Positions 3,110 through 28,700 of a stretch of DNA of 36,230 nucleotides are shown here, piece after piece. Source of the stretch: a virus. The notes beneath the pieces are model-generated. The model was not told where the DNA came from. It did not search any database and saw only the letters and a list, made by a program, of their open reading frames with translations. Within the stretch, counting starts at the first letter, position 1. The number at the start of each line of letters is the position of its first letter. Position numbers and translations under genes: made by a program. The stretch is from IMG/VR virus record IMGVR_UViG_3300007960_000073, positions 1 to 36,230 of that record. One strand, given 5' to 3'.

Positions 3110-3649
3110 ATGGCATGTGTAGATTATTGCGCAGAAGGCTTGTTAGACCATTCGCTAATTGAGTGCGATGAATATCTATTGGGAGGTATCTCTCAAGCTA
3201 TTATCGGCTCTTGTGGCACAGAGCTAACAGACCCTTCAGATGCAGCAGAGATACAAGCATTACTTGATGCAGGCACAGCTAAACTTGTTCAGAACGTACG
3301 TATGTCGCTTCCAGCGGGTTCACCAGTTACGGTTGATTCACCTATTGGATGCGGAACAACATTACGTATTAACGAGGACAGAACAGCTACTGTATTTGAT
3401 GCCAATGTTACTAACGCTAACGTGGAGCTTTATAACGACCTTAACAACCGTAAGATTGCATGGTTACTATTGTACCTATGTGATTCGGATAAGGTTGTTT
3501 ATATCGACCCTCCACAAGCGATTACTACATCGGTATCATTGATTATCCCTGAGCAGAACAACGAGCTTCAAAGATTTGAGGGTACGTTTGCTTGGAGAGA
3601 TAAGCAAGCACCATTACAGTATGATGCGCCAGCAGGTATCTTTGAGTAA
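3110..3649 (+). CDS. Candidate major tail (tube) protein
   Basis: A 179-residue protein with its own promoter, a 70-base leader and its own terminator, an arrangement that fits high expression of one structural protein. The sequence is beta-rich, acidic and without membrane segments; the middle (LRINEDRTATVFDANVTNAN) and the end (LQRFEGTFAWRDKQAPLQYD) could fit a tail-tube beta barrel. Length is in the range of siphovirus tube proteins. It lies shortly after the distal tail genes. The assignment is by size, isolation and location, not by a motif; another small virion protein is possible. Confidence 0.5.
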   Translation: MACVDYCAEGLLDHSLIECDEYLLGGISQAIIGSCGTELTDPSDAAEIQALLDAGTAKLVQNVRMSLPAGSPVTVDSPIGCGTTLRINEDRTATVFDANVTNANVELYNDLNNRKIAWLLLYLCDSDKVVYIDPPQAITTSVSLIIPEQNNELQRFEGTFAWRDKQAPLQYDAPAGIFE

Positions 3650-17948: not shown

Positions 17949-18842
17949 ATGAATGTATTATCCCTATTTGATGGAATGAGTTGCGGACAGATTGCCCTGC
18001 AACGTGCAGGAATAAAAGTAAAAAATTACTTTGCAAGTGAAATAAAGCCTCACGCAATTAAAGTAACACAACATAACTTCCCTAATACAGTCCAATTGGG
18101 CAGTGTATTAGATGTGAAAGGAATTGATTTGCCTAAGATTGATTTATTGATAGGTGGAAGTCCATGCCAAGATTTCAGTTCAGCTAATAAAGAAAAATTG
18201 GGTTTACAAGGAGAAAAATCAGGTTTATTTTATGAGTATTTAAGATTATTGAAAGAGTGTAAGCCAAAGTATTTTTTACTTGAAAATGTAGCAATGGATA
18301 ATTACAGCTACCAAGCAATAAGCGAAATGCTTGGAACATACCCAACAAACATAAATAGCGAGTTGGTTTCAGGTCAATTAAGGCAAAGAAGTTATTGGAC
18401 TAATATAGGTCCAGAATATTTAGATTTATTTGGCAATAGATATTCAATGATACCACAACCAAAAAACAAAAACATTAAGTTTCAAGACATTTTAGAAGAT
18501 GGTTATACTGATAGATTAAAAGCAAGATGCTTACTTGAAAGTGAAAGTAGAAATCCGGGTAGCACATTTTCATCATTAAGAAGATATATGATAATGGGTT
18601 TTATTAATGTTATTTTTAAGGACAAAGAAACCTACGAAAAGTATTCTAAAATGACAGAAGAAGAAATGAAAGTAAATTTTGTCGATGGCGATATTAGAAA
18701 ACTAACTCAAACAGAAATGGAAAGATTACAAACAGTACCAAGTGGATATACAAGTATTATAAAAAGAAACGAAGCAGCTTGTTTGCTAGGTGATGGATGG
18801 ACAATAGACATAATATCACATATCTTTTCATTTATAAAGTAG
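17949..18842 (+). CDS. DNA (cytosine-5) methyltransferase
   Basis: A 297-residue C5 methyltransferase. Motif I FDGMSCGQIALQRAG (SAM site), motif IV GGSPCQDFS with catalytic Cys73, motif VI ENV (112-114), motif VIII QLRQRSYW, motif IX LTQTEMERLQTVP and motif X GDGWTIDII are all present, so it should be active. No restriction partner nearby, so it probably protects phage DNA or alters host methylation. The recognition domain (about 175-235) is short. Codon use is AT-richer than structural neighbours, suggesting acquisition. Confidence 0.92.
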   Translation: MNVLSLFDGMSCGQIALQRAGIKVKNYFASEIKPHAIKVTQHNFPNTVQLGSVLDVKGIDLPKIDLLIGGSPCQDFSSANKEKLGLQGEKSGLFYEYLRLLKECKPKYFLLENVAMDNYSYQAISEMLGTYPTNINSELVSGQLRQRSYWTNIGPEYLDLFGNRYSMIPQPKNKNIKFQDILEDGYTDRLKARCLLESESRNPGSTFSSLRRYMIMGFINVIFKDKETYEKYSKMTEEEMKVNFVDGDIRKLTQTEMERLQTVPSGYTSIIKRNEAACLLGDGWTIDIISHIFSFIK

Positions 18843-21948: not shown

Positions 21949-23160
21949 ATGTCAAGAAAAAAGTATTTAGAGCAAAATGTACTTCAGGCATCAATGAATA
22001 GAATAAGCAAAACATTTGATGATTTTGAAAGTATTTATATTTCTTTTAGCGGAGGAAAAGACTCAACGGTTATGACACATCTTGTTTTAGATGAGGCAAA
22101 AAAAAGAAATAGAAAAGTAGGTTTGCTAATTATTGATTTAGAAGCGCAGTATTCCGAAACCATTAAACACATTGAAAAAATGTGTGATATATATAAAGAT
22201 TATATAGACCTTCATTGGTTTTGCGGTGAGCTTCTTTTAAGAAATGCAGTTAGTGATTTTGAGCCAAAATGGGTTTGTTGGGATGAAGAAAAACAAAGCC
22301 TATGGGTTAGAGAAAAGCCAAAGCTTGCATCAGATTTAAGTCAATATGATTTCTATGTGCCTAAAATGGAGTTTGAGGAACTTATGGTTTTGTTTGGCAA
22401 ATGGTATGCAAAAGATAAAATGTGTGCTGGATTTATTGGAATAAGGTCTGATGAATCTTTGCATAGATACAGGGCAATTACTTCTCAAAAAAATGGATTG
22501 ATGCACAAAGATTATAAATGGACTACAAAATTATCTTCAAATTTATTTAATGTATATCCAATTTATGATTGGAGAACAGAAGATATTTGGTTGTTCCACT
22601 TCAAAAACAATCATCTTTGTTATAATAAAATATATGATCAAATGACAAAAGCAGGTGTTAAGTTTAGCAATCAAAGACTATGTCAGCCATTTGGTGATGA
22701 CCAAAAAAAAGGTTTATGGCTTTACCATATTTTAGAACCAAATACATGGTATAAGCTTTTAAATAGAGTAAGTGGCGTAAATTCAGGGGCTTTATATATT
22801 GGTGAAAATGGGAATATGACAGGCTCGAATGATGTTTTTTTACCTAAAAACCATACTTGGGAATCATACACCAATTTTTTACTTAAATCATTGCCTAAAA
22901 AAATGCAAACACATTATAAGGGCCGATTTGTTAAATTTATTGCAGGGTGGAAGCAAAGAGGATATGATAAAATACCAGATGAAGCACCACATGAGTTAGA
23001 AATAAAATGCTGGGCACCATCATGGAAACGAATGGCAAGATGCATTTTAAGAAATGATTATTACTGCAAGGGGCTTGGTCAAACTCAGCCAAAATCAGAA
23101 GCCTATGAAAAGTTTAAAGCTATTAAATACAAAAGAGAAATTGAAAAATCAATTAACTAA
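21949..23160 (+). CDS. PAPS reductase-family (IbrA/DUF3440-like) protein
   Basis: A 403-residue protein. SFSGGKDSTVM (SGGKDS 34-39) is the PP-loop of the adenine-nucleotide alpha-hydrolase fold; DLEAQYSETI, AGFIGIRSDESLHRYRAI and VYPIYDWRTEDIW are the family blocks. The C-terminal region has several Cys (NQRLCQPFGDDQKKG, KCWAPSWKRMARCILRNDYY, CKGLGQ). The length and layout match DUF3440 proteins rather than sulfate-assimilation CysH. Coupled to the ParB-like gene. AT-rich. It may activate a substrate by adenylylation or transfer sulfur; not established. Confidence 0.85.
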   Translation: MSRKKYLEQNVLQASMNRISKTFDDFESIYISFSGGKDSTVMTHLVLDEAKKRNRKVGLLIIDLEAQYSETIKHIEKMCDIYKDYIDLHWFCGELLLRNAVSDFEPKWVCWDEEKQSLWVREKPKLASDLSQYDFYVPKMEFEELMVLFGKWYAKDKMCAGFIGIRSDESLHRYRAITSQKNGLMHKDYKWTTKLSSNLFNVYPIYDWRTEDIWLFHFKNNHLCYNKIYDQMTKAGVKFSNQRLCQPFGDDQKKGLWLYHILEPNTWYKLLNRVSGVNSGALYIGENGNMTGSNDVFLPKNHTWESYTNFLLKSLPKKMQTHYKGRFVKFIAGWKQRGYDKIPDEAPHELEIKCWAPSWKRMARCILRNDYYCKGLGQTQPKSEAYEKFKAIKYKREIEKSIN

Positions 23161-27113: not shown

Positions 27114-27439
27114 AACAATGGATAATAAAGGCTTTTGAGATTGCTTTACAAGTTTACCCTTATACTAATAACTTGGCATCAAGAGAAGAAGAAAATGTAA
27201 GGCTTAGAAACGCTGTTATGGTAATATCTTACTGGCGTTGGGGTAAGCATGCAGGCTCAGTATTTATTGGTGAGGTTATCGCTGACTGTGTAGGTAAAAA
27301 GATACCTTACTCCCATTGTACTGTATTACACTCGATAAGGCAGCATAAGAATAGGTTACAATTCCCAAATGCCAACGCTGAGTATGTGGCACAATACACT
27401 ACCTTTAGGGAGCAGATAAAAGAAAGGGGATTGATATGA
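27041..27439 (+). CDS. DnaA domain IV-like DNA-binding protein
   Basis: A 132-residue protein. VFIGEVIADCVGKKIPYSHC then TVLHSIRQHKNRL matches the HTH of DnaA domain IV, where [HD]-x-TV-x-H contacts the origin box. No AAA+ ATPase domain is present. N-terminal 50 residues are helical. The start is inside the nuclease gene; a later ATG (27217) would cut away part of the domain. It may mark the phage origin or compete for DnaA boxes. Confidence 0.7.
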   Translation: METGQAIYRAEVADESAAEPKHFIKQWIIKAFEIALQVYPYTNNLASREEENVRLRNAVMVISYWRWGKHAGSVFIGEVIADCVGKKIPYSHCTVLHSIRQHKNRLQFPNANAEYVAQYTTFREQIKERGLI

Positions 27440-27834
27440 GTGAATCAGAAATATACAAAGCCTTTGCCCGGTACATGGCAATAGCACACCAAAGAGTTAT
27501 TTACCGCTTCGATTATGGGGCAGGCACTTACTTAGGGTGGAAGCAGAAAAGCGAACAGAAGCTACTCAATCCACATAGGGGCTATCCTGACTTGTTTATT
27601 GCCAAGCCTGTTGGAAGGTTTAAGGGGTGCTTCTTTGAGATTAAGAAAGAAGGTAACAATCCTTATTTACAAAAAGGCAAGGATAGGGGTATGTTAAGGC
27701 AAGACCAGCATGTATTAGAACAGGCATCTATGCTTGACAGGCTTCATAAGGCTGGTTATTATGCTGAATTTGCAGTAGGGTTAGACCAGCTTATTGAGCG
27801 AACAGAAAACTATTTGAAAGGTAAATTTGAATAG
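27436..27834 (+). CDS. VRR-NUC domain nuclease
   Basis: A 132-residue protein in ATGA overlap with the previous gene. Stand-alone VRR-NUC (PD-(D/E)XK) layout: HRGYPDLFIAKP with D52, CFFEIKKEG with E68 and K70, DQHVLEQASMLDRLHKAGYY as the helix after the core. Phage VRR-NUC proteins cleave branched DNA. Last gene before the structured leader. Confidence 0.85.
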   Translation: MSESEIYKAFARYMAIAHQRVIYRFDYGAGTYLGWKQKSEQKLLNPHRGYPDLFIAKPVGRFKGCFFEIKKEGNNPYLQKGKDRGMLRQDQHVLEQASMLDRLHKAGYYAEFAVGLDQLIERTENYLKGKFE

Positions 27835-27854
27835 ATTATTTCTTACCTTTACAC

Positions 27855-27962
27855 CGTTAGAAAGTCGAACCTCTAACGCAGACAAAACATTTTGCCCTAT
27901 AAGGGCTGCGAGGGTTTAAGAAATTATACCCGGTTCGACCGCAGCTTTTGTAGGGCTTTTTT
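27855..27962 (+). ncRNA. Structured leader: hairpin plus long terminator with complementary loops
   Basis: CGTTAGA (27855-27861) and TCTAACG (27872-27878) form a 7-bp hairpin with a 10-base loop. Bases 27894-27910 pair with 27940-27956 as 17 continuous base pairs with three G-U, followed by six T, an intrinsic terminator with a 29-base loop. The first loop holds GTCGAACC (27864-27871) and the second GGTTCGAC (27932-27939), perfect complements. A shorter GCCCT/AGGGC hairpin (27894-27906) can form instead of the terminator. It lies between the VRR-NUC gene and the replication gene, so it may be an attenuator or a small RNA. Confidence 0.8.
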
Positions 27963-27968
27963 AATTTT

Positions 27969-28700
27969 ATGCCTATGAATAATGATAGACCTTCTTTTTT
28001 GATTTACAAAGATTCATTTGAGGTACTTCAAGAACTTTCTGATGAAGATTTAGGCAAAGTATTTAGGATGATTTTTGAGTACACAATTCATGGAATTATA
28101 CCTGATAAAAAAGACAAAAACTACATTGCTTTTTCGTTTTTAAAGCTGAATTTAGACAGAGATAATAAAAAATATTTGGATATAATAGAACGAAATAAAA
28201 TCAATGGTAGTAAGGGAGGCAGACCGAAAAAACCCAAAAAACCCAGTGGGTTAAATGGAAACCCAAGTAAACCCAAAAAAGCCGATATAGATATAGATAC
28301 AGATATAGTTATAGAAAGAGATATAGATATAGATATTAAGACAAAACATTCGTTTTGTAAATCTCCTTACTTTGAGTTTAGTAAATTTGAAGAAGCATTT
28401 TTACAAACTAAATGTTACTCACGTTATCCGAACCTTTCCATCGAGGCAATACATGAAGAGCTTATGTTAGCATCTGATTCAAACTCTAAATACAAATACA
28501 ATAACTGGATTTCCGTTGCCCAAAGTTGGGTAAATAGAAATCCTACTAAATACCAAAACACAATAAAAAAATCAATCGAGCAAGACCCAATATCACCACT
28601 AATGAACAAAGGCGATAAAATCAGAGCCGAGAATGATGCCCGGTTAGAAGCTCAACTAAAACTTACAGCACATGAAGACCCTTATTCCAAGTACCACTAA
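27969..28700 (+). CDS. Replication protein, DUF6291-like
   Basis: A 243-residue protein. SFLIYKDSFEVLQELSDEDL, then MIFEYTIHGIIPD, IAFSFLKLNLDRDNKKYLDI and NGSKGGRPKKPKKPS follow the N-terminal pattern of a common phage and Bacteroidota replication-region family (SFxxYkdw ... GGRPKK). A low-complexity Asp-Ile linker (DIDIDTDIVIERDIDIDIK) separates it from a C-terminal helical domain ending in YNNWISVAQSW. ATG 27969 is 6 bases after the terminator T tract; ATG 27975 is an alternative. AT-rich. Confidence 0.75.
   Translation: MPMNNDRPSFLIYKDSFEVLQELSDEDLGKVFRMIFEYTIHGIIPDKKDKNYIAFSFLKLNLDRDNKKYLDIIERNKINGSKGGRPKKPKKPSGLNGNPSKPKKADIDIDTDIVIERDIDIDIKTKHSFCKSPYFEFSKFEEAFLQTKCYSRYPNLSIEAIHEELMLASDSNSKYKYNNWISVAQSWVNRNPTKYQNTIKKSIEQDPISPLMNKGDKIRAENDARLEAQLKLTAHEDPYSKYH
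28283..28336 (+). repeat. GATATA microsatellite
   Basis: Imperfect repeats of GATATA inside the replication gene, coding for the Asp-Ile linker. Likely to vary in unit number between relatives. Confidence 0.7.

Follow-up and report, generated by a model that had tools for sequence, protein, structure and literature searches.

The virus record analysed here (36,230 bases, referred to throughout as the window) carries, ahead of a replication-type gene, one member of a well-supported class of structured RNAs that we recovered from more than 120 viral contigs using pattern, protein and covariance searches. Comparison of these homologues shows a predicted fold composed of a hairpin (P1), an A-rich linker, a terminator stem (P2), a small hairpin within the terminator loop (P3) and a pseudoknot in which a segment of the P1 loop (tag 1) pairs with a segment of the terminator loop (tag 2). 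As to function, we infer, with a probability of roughly 0.6, a self-terminating phage RNA of about 105 nt, with read-through feeding the replication operon and the tag acting as a self-recognition code. The hypervariable matched tag, the promoter box and the wide spread of the class go beyond the initial annotation of this locus, which was made from the single sequence. What is new is the RNA class and the behaviour of its tag; the mechanism may turn out to be of a known kind. It is worth noting that a class present in this many viral contigs is absent from the RNA, phage-isolate and prokaryote-genome collections that we searched.

Anatomy and covariation of the element

The contents of the intergenic gap agree to the base with the initial annotation, whose positions for P1, its loop, the terminator, the T-run and the complementary loop segment all proved correct when checked against the sequence (Table 1). 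The gap folds more stably than dinucleotide shuffles (z = -4.15). Tag 1 and its complement have two matches in 36 kb, both inside the element, where 0.24 would be expected by chance, and base composition gives a probability of about 0.0012 for an exact 8-nt match between the P1 and terminator loops, bearing out the annotation's claim that this complementarity exceeds chance. The single sequence is nonetheless suggestive rather than decisive, because perfect 7-bp hairpins with loops of 8-12 nt number 38 when both strands are counted. Covariance model R1, built from a seed of 41 sequences, matches the window at 27852-27962 with 102 bits and an E-value of 4.9e-21, the window itself being part of that seed.

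Table 1. Features of the element and its flanking genes, in window coordinates. Double-sided changes refer to the covariance-model alignment of 88 elements.
Feature	Position	Strand	Sequence and remarks
Upstream gene, nuclease/Holliday-junction-resolvase-like	27436-27834	+	phrog_5702, E 1.2e-6; outside the RNA
Intergenic gap	27835-27968		
Promoter -7 box, Bacteroidota sigma-A type	27844-27851	+	TACCTTTA; consensus TAnnTTTG
Predicted small RNA gene, promoter to U-tract	27855-27962	+	about 105 nt; covariance model R1
P1	27855-27861 / 27872-27878	+	CGTTAGA / TCTAACG; double-sided changes in 7 of 7 pairs
P1 loop			AAGTCGAACC; contains tag 1
Tag 1	27864-27871	+	GTCGAACC; in P1 loop; pairs with tag 2; double-sided changes in 6 of 8 pairs
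A-rich linker	27879-27893	+	14-20 nt among homologues; one A nearly invariant
P2 5' arm	27894-27910	+	GCCCTATAAGGGCTGCG; terminator stem; double-sided changes in 12 of 17 pairs
P3, small hairpin in terminator loop	27912-27931 (27912-27915 / 27928-27931)	+	GGGT / ACCC; double-sided changes in 3 of 4 pairs
Tag 2	27932-27939	+	GGTTCGAC; directly between P3 and P2 3' arm; exact complement of tag 1
P2 3' arm and U-tract	27940-27962	+	CGCAGCTTTTGTAGGGC (27940-27956), TTTTTT (27957-27962); intrinsic terminator
Downstream gene, DUF6291, replication-type	27969-28700	+	PF19808, E 1.4e-25

The check that the initial annotation had itself proposed, covariation among related phages, was run, and both the stems and the loop-loop pairing covary. 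In the seed alignment of 41 sequences, 93.7% of cells are paired and 27 pairs carry double changes against 15.3 in shuffled alignments, with none of 500 shuffles reaching as high; the covariance-model alignment of 88 elements contains 28 double-change pairs (Table 1; the outermost-loop pair of P3 is weak) and scores 0.427 for covariation, compared with 0.156 when shuffled and 0.065 at best when slid. Covariation of the loop-loop pairing is strong in both alignments and in a scan of all column pairs. The fit of alignment A5 covered P1, P2 and P3 and left out the tag pairing, and in a pseudoknot-free alignment the variable tag pairs, four in number, take ranks 1, 2, 4 and 7 among all column pairs. 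The element therefore shows what identifies a kissing-loop RNA, a hairpin loop whose pairing with a second loop covaries. No competing helix appears among the top covarying column pairs of the same scan, and the pair of mutually exclusive conserved folds that marks an attenuator or riboswitch was not found. A GCCCT/AGGGC hairpin that the annotation described as competing with the terminator is present in the sequence but does not covary beyond shuffles, and it was rejected as an antiterminator.

The inner stem of P2 appears over-invariant because our main search pattern fixed seven inner P2 base pairs; these pairs do change in pairs in six members (L003, L004, L011, L015, L016 and L149) and in a second subfamily. 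Besides the paired positions, a single A at 27911, between P2 and P3, is nearly invariant, as is the A that precedes tag 1 in the 5' part of the P1 loop; these two residues could bridge the groove of the helix formed by the tags. On the opposite strand of the element, many loci give weak covariance-model matches of about 20-37 bits, probably the mirror image of nearly palindromic terminator stems.

The ends of the predicted RNA are sharply placed. A TAnnTT[TC][GA] box lies -1 to 3 nt from the model start in 103 of the 106 elements collected, compared with 0.9% of positions taken at random from these loci. In Flavobacterium psychrophilum the -7 box occupies positions -12 to -5 relative to the transcription start (PMC9723704), and the RNA should therefore start at the base of P1, at about 27855-27857 in the window. 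No consensus for a -33 element was found among the homologues; in F. johnsoniae this element likewise has none (PMC7366714). Between the end of the upstream gene and the model start there are usually 5-27 nt, and the distance from the model end to the following start codon is 0-19 nt in all 105 testable loci. At the 3' end the U-tract is conserved in the homologue alignment, and the window has the stable G+C-rich stem followed by a U-tract that characterises intrinsic terminators (17 bp with some G-U pairs, then six T). An own -7 box at the appropriate distance together with a terminator, the arrangement of small RNA genes in Bacteroidota, was found in 103/106 elements, and the hosts of these phages are probably Bacteroidota. 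Such ends, with the box preceding P1, agree with the annotation's alternative proposal that the structure forms the 3' end of a stable RNA.

Tags that change in pairs

The set of 106 elements was gathered without any requirement on the tag, and tag pairing is exact in 104 of them; in the other two (L015 and L016), pairing is possible with one bulge, as read by eye. A second subfamily, held out and retrieved with a pattern specifying neither P1 nor tag 1, gives exact pairing in 20/20 elements, with few distinct tags. Across 704 tag cells, 700 are Watson-Crick, none are G-U and four are mismatches (99.4% paired), all four mismatches coming from the divergent L015 and L016 according to the per-pair table; elsewhere in the fold, G-U occupies 69 cells in P1 and 156 in P2. 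Tags take the form GT[ACG][AG]NANC with few exceptions, and seventeen distinct tags occur among the 104 elements. The matching loop pairs are GTCGAACC/GGTTCGAC in the window, GTGGAATC/GATTCCAC in L020, GGTGAGAGC/GCTCTCACC in L002 and GGTCGCATC/GATGCGACC in L003.

On a tree of 88 elements built without the tag columns, the tag has changed at least 43 times. Positions 3, 5 and 7 account for 27, 24 and 21 changes, among the highest of all columns, and each tag-2 position has the same change count as its tag-1 partner, although these counts are rough because the tree rests on about 100 columns. Identical tags recur in different backbones, and near-identical backbones carry different tags: L081 and L122 have different tags at a backbone similarity of 0.98 and flank similarities of 0.95 and 0.90, and the tags of L031 and L113 differ even though the first 300 bases of their downstream genes are 99% alike. 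This pattern suggests selection for change of the code with the match retained. Paired change could arise through quick compensation under selection or through a mechanism that copies one tag to the other; the latter, as a general mechanism, is less likely given that P2, a longer inverted repeat, does not stay perfect.

Two further properties of the tags were assessed. A third copy of the tag, as might mark an mRNA or DNA target, occurs 17 times in the flanks against 14.3 expected, which is not above control. The cross-binding of observed tags is -2.58 kcal/mol compared with -2.37 kcal/mol for random tags of the same form, and in 156 of 200 random tag sets cross-binding is weaker or equal. We therefore rejected the observed tags as an orthogonal set, and an orthogonal code is not supported because they are no more orthogonal than random ones.

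Distribution and gene neighbourhood

Relatives of the upstream nuclease-like gene show the same layout with different yet matching loops. The main pattern, which specified the inner terminator stem only and left the tag and P1 unconstrained, retrieved at least 119 stretches in viral contigs, the majority with the whole element, and R1 then gave one strong copy in nearly every collected locus, for 106 elements in total. Additional members came from a search with the downstream gene (L174, L176) and from a pattern for one tag class; the second subfamily has a different inner stem, GGNNTACG. Of 30 longer records, almost every one contains just one strong copy.

A record of 52,227 bases (G024, the record of L124) has two copies with different tags, at 3496-3612 and 38212-38323, and around each lies a separate version of one gene block. 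The two versions are about 35 kb apart and share about 87% DNA identity over 2 kb, and our guess is that two related phages were possibly joined in assembly. A divergent second variant of the element, which has an additional small 5' hairpin and the tag TGGAATC/GATTCCA, lies at L102:9345-9465 (+), 1 kb upstream of a main element whose tag is GTCGTATC, and also at L177:4086-4192 and L178:626-732.

Searches of the window and ten homologous loci against Rfam 15 (4227 families, including pRNA, GOLLD, ROOL, c4 and riboswitches) gave no match at or above a family's gathering threshold, the score that defines membership; the best weak match reached 15.6 bits against a threshold of 95. The initial annotation knew of no named class with such a layout, and no RNA of this kind is described in the literature searched, mainly open-access papers. 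A pattern scan of 84,980 prokaryote genomes, which can miss other subfamilies because the pattern is that of one subfamily, returned only four hits, from the pattern alone, in unrelated hosts (an Acidimicrobiia MAG, Mesorhizobium, Actinomadura and Paraliomyxa), and we read them as likely chance because of those hosts. No convincing covariance-model match came from cultured phages whose replication genes are related (Riemerella, Olleya, Cellulophaga, Flavobacterium and others).

The placement before a replication gene that the annotation gave for the window holds widely: in 94 of 106 loci the element is followed, immediately or after a small gene, by a member of a replication-type family, and of the 12 loci lacking one two are too short to tell. 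The gene directly downstream is a different one in a third of loci, and the upstream genes belong to many families and vary between homologues. Relatives of the window's downstream gene are annotated "replication protein" in Olleya phage Harreka_1 and in Flavobacterium elemo phages, in the latter beside primase/helicase; some relatives so annotated sit beside hypothetical genes, and related downstream genes have matches to lambda-O-like and DnaD-like PHROGs. The 8-sequence DUF6291 alignment was too divergent to find homologues. The downstream protein has a weak AlphaFold model (pLDDT 70.5, pTM 0.38), for which no structural match was found. Elsewhere in the window, read by eye, 17949-18842 resembles a DNA cytosine methyltransferase gene and 21949-23160 a gene for a PAPS-reductase-like protein.

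Readings of the element and known systems

In the reading that we prefer, RNA polymerase would begin transcription at the P1 base and in most cases stop at P2, releasing a predicted stable RNA of about 105 nt, and read-through would supply the replication operon, which has its first start codon 0-19 nt past the U-tract. Less certain is the further step in which the tag would act as a self-recognition code tying the action of the RNA to its own phage, a step that we favour because the tag changes fast and in pairs. Pairing within one RNA would lock the fold, and pairing between copies from the same phage, excluding the RNAs of other phages, could allow output to follow genome copy number, by analogy with plasmid antisense RNAs. 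That the tag is a hypervariable, self-matching barcode acting between RNA copies, whether for self/non-self recognition, private copy-number sensing, assembly or interference, is a tentative proposal that we consider doubtful; a cis lock with unexplained tag variation is possible. Points against the preferred reading are the lack of a -33 consensus, the 12 loci in which no replication-family gene follows, and tags that cross-bind no less than random ones. If the tag acts between molecules, phages would be able to distinguish their own copies from others by means of RNA, and if it acts within one molecule, its fast paired change calls for explanation.

The switch proposed in the initial annotation corresponds to a cis-acting attenuator, in which the leader of a replication operon would alter terminator read-through on a signal, through kissing or a factor. 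The conserved place ahead of replication-type genes fits such a leader, as do its own promoter box, its terminator and a start codon so close downstream that no separate operon promoter lies in between. However, a switch is not supported because no competing fold covaries, the GCCCT/AGGGC hairpin included; P1, the tag helix, P2 and P3 are mutually compatible, so that tag pairing leaves the terminator intact, and the immediate downstream genes vary in a third of loci. We consider an attenuator unlikely. More improbable still is an oligomer made of RNA only, a ring or chain in which tag 1 of each molecule binds tag 2 of its neighbour and tag variation keeps the parts of co-infecting phages from mixing, comparable to phi29 pRNA and the GOLLD/ROOL cages. 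It would account for a tag that is hypervariable yet always self-matching, and pairing within and between molecules leaves identical covariation; pairings in ROOL and GOLLD first found by covariation indeed proved to be intermolecular bridges (PMC12286853). Against it, the linker of 14-20 nt seems, judging from geometry, long enough for intramolecular pairing, and the element has little symmetry or size.

The complete lack of G-U in 700 tag pairs is what selection for DNA identity would give, and together with the adjoining replication-type genes it could point to an element acting as DNA, its tags forming a protein-bound inverted repeat (for example, one bound by an origin initiator) and its RNA hairpins being secondary. 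Yet the hairpin whose loop contains tag 1 covaries and includes 69 G-U cells, no spacer separates tag 2 from P3 or P2, and the tags are both located between promoter box and terminator. The different tags of L031 and L113 beside nearly identical downstream gene starts mean that this part of the protein does not explain the tags, and third copies in the flanks do not exceed control; a DNA-level role is thus very improbable. Terminators are common in compact phage genomes, and the locus could in principle be a plain intrinsic terminator with a chance loop match, an explanation of negligible probability that the homologues refute through exact tags in both the main and the held-out sets and repeated double changes.

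Riboswitch and attenuator leaders resemble the element in the order of promoter, folded leader, terminator and gene, but here there is no covarying alternative fold, and the loop is variable instead of being a conserved binding site. The pRNA of phage phi29 is a small phage RNA that acts in DNA packaging and has two complementary loops joined intermolecularly by about 4 bp. The element is alike in being a small phage RNA with two complementary loops, and differs in its pairing of 8-9 bp, the terminator within its fold, its replication-type neighbours and its lack of an Rfam match. The intergenic small RNAs of Bacteroides thetaiotaomicron (PMC7366714) likewise have their own -7 box and an intrinsic terminator; they are host-encoded, with no kissing tag described and no shared Rfam family found. 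GOLLD and ROOL (PMC12286853) are also phage-encoded structured RNAs of unassigned function with covarying kissing loops, but GOLLD members often exceed 800 nt, compared with about 105 nt and no Rfam match here, and a hypervariable, strictly matched tag and a terminator-embedded layout are not described there. Plasmid antisense copy-number RNAs such as ColE1 RNAI and IncI/IncK RNAI also combine loop pairing with a place beside a replication gene, and in them a few loop bases decide which replicons interfere (PMC10724649); their antisense and target are transcribed from opposite strands, whereas the phage element carries both halves on one RNA.
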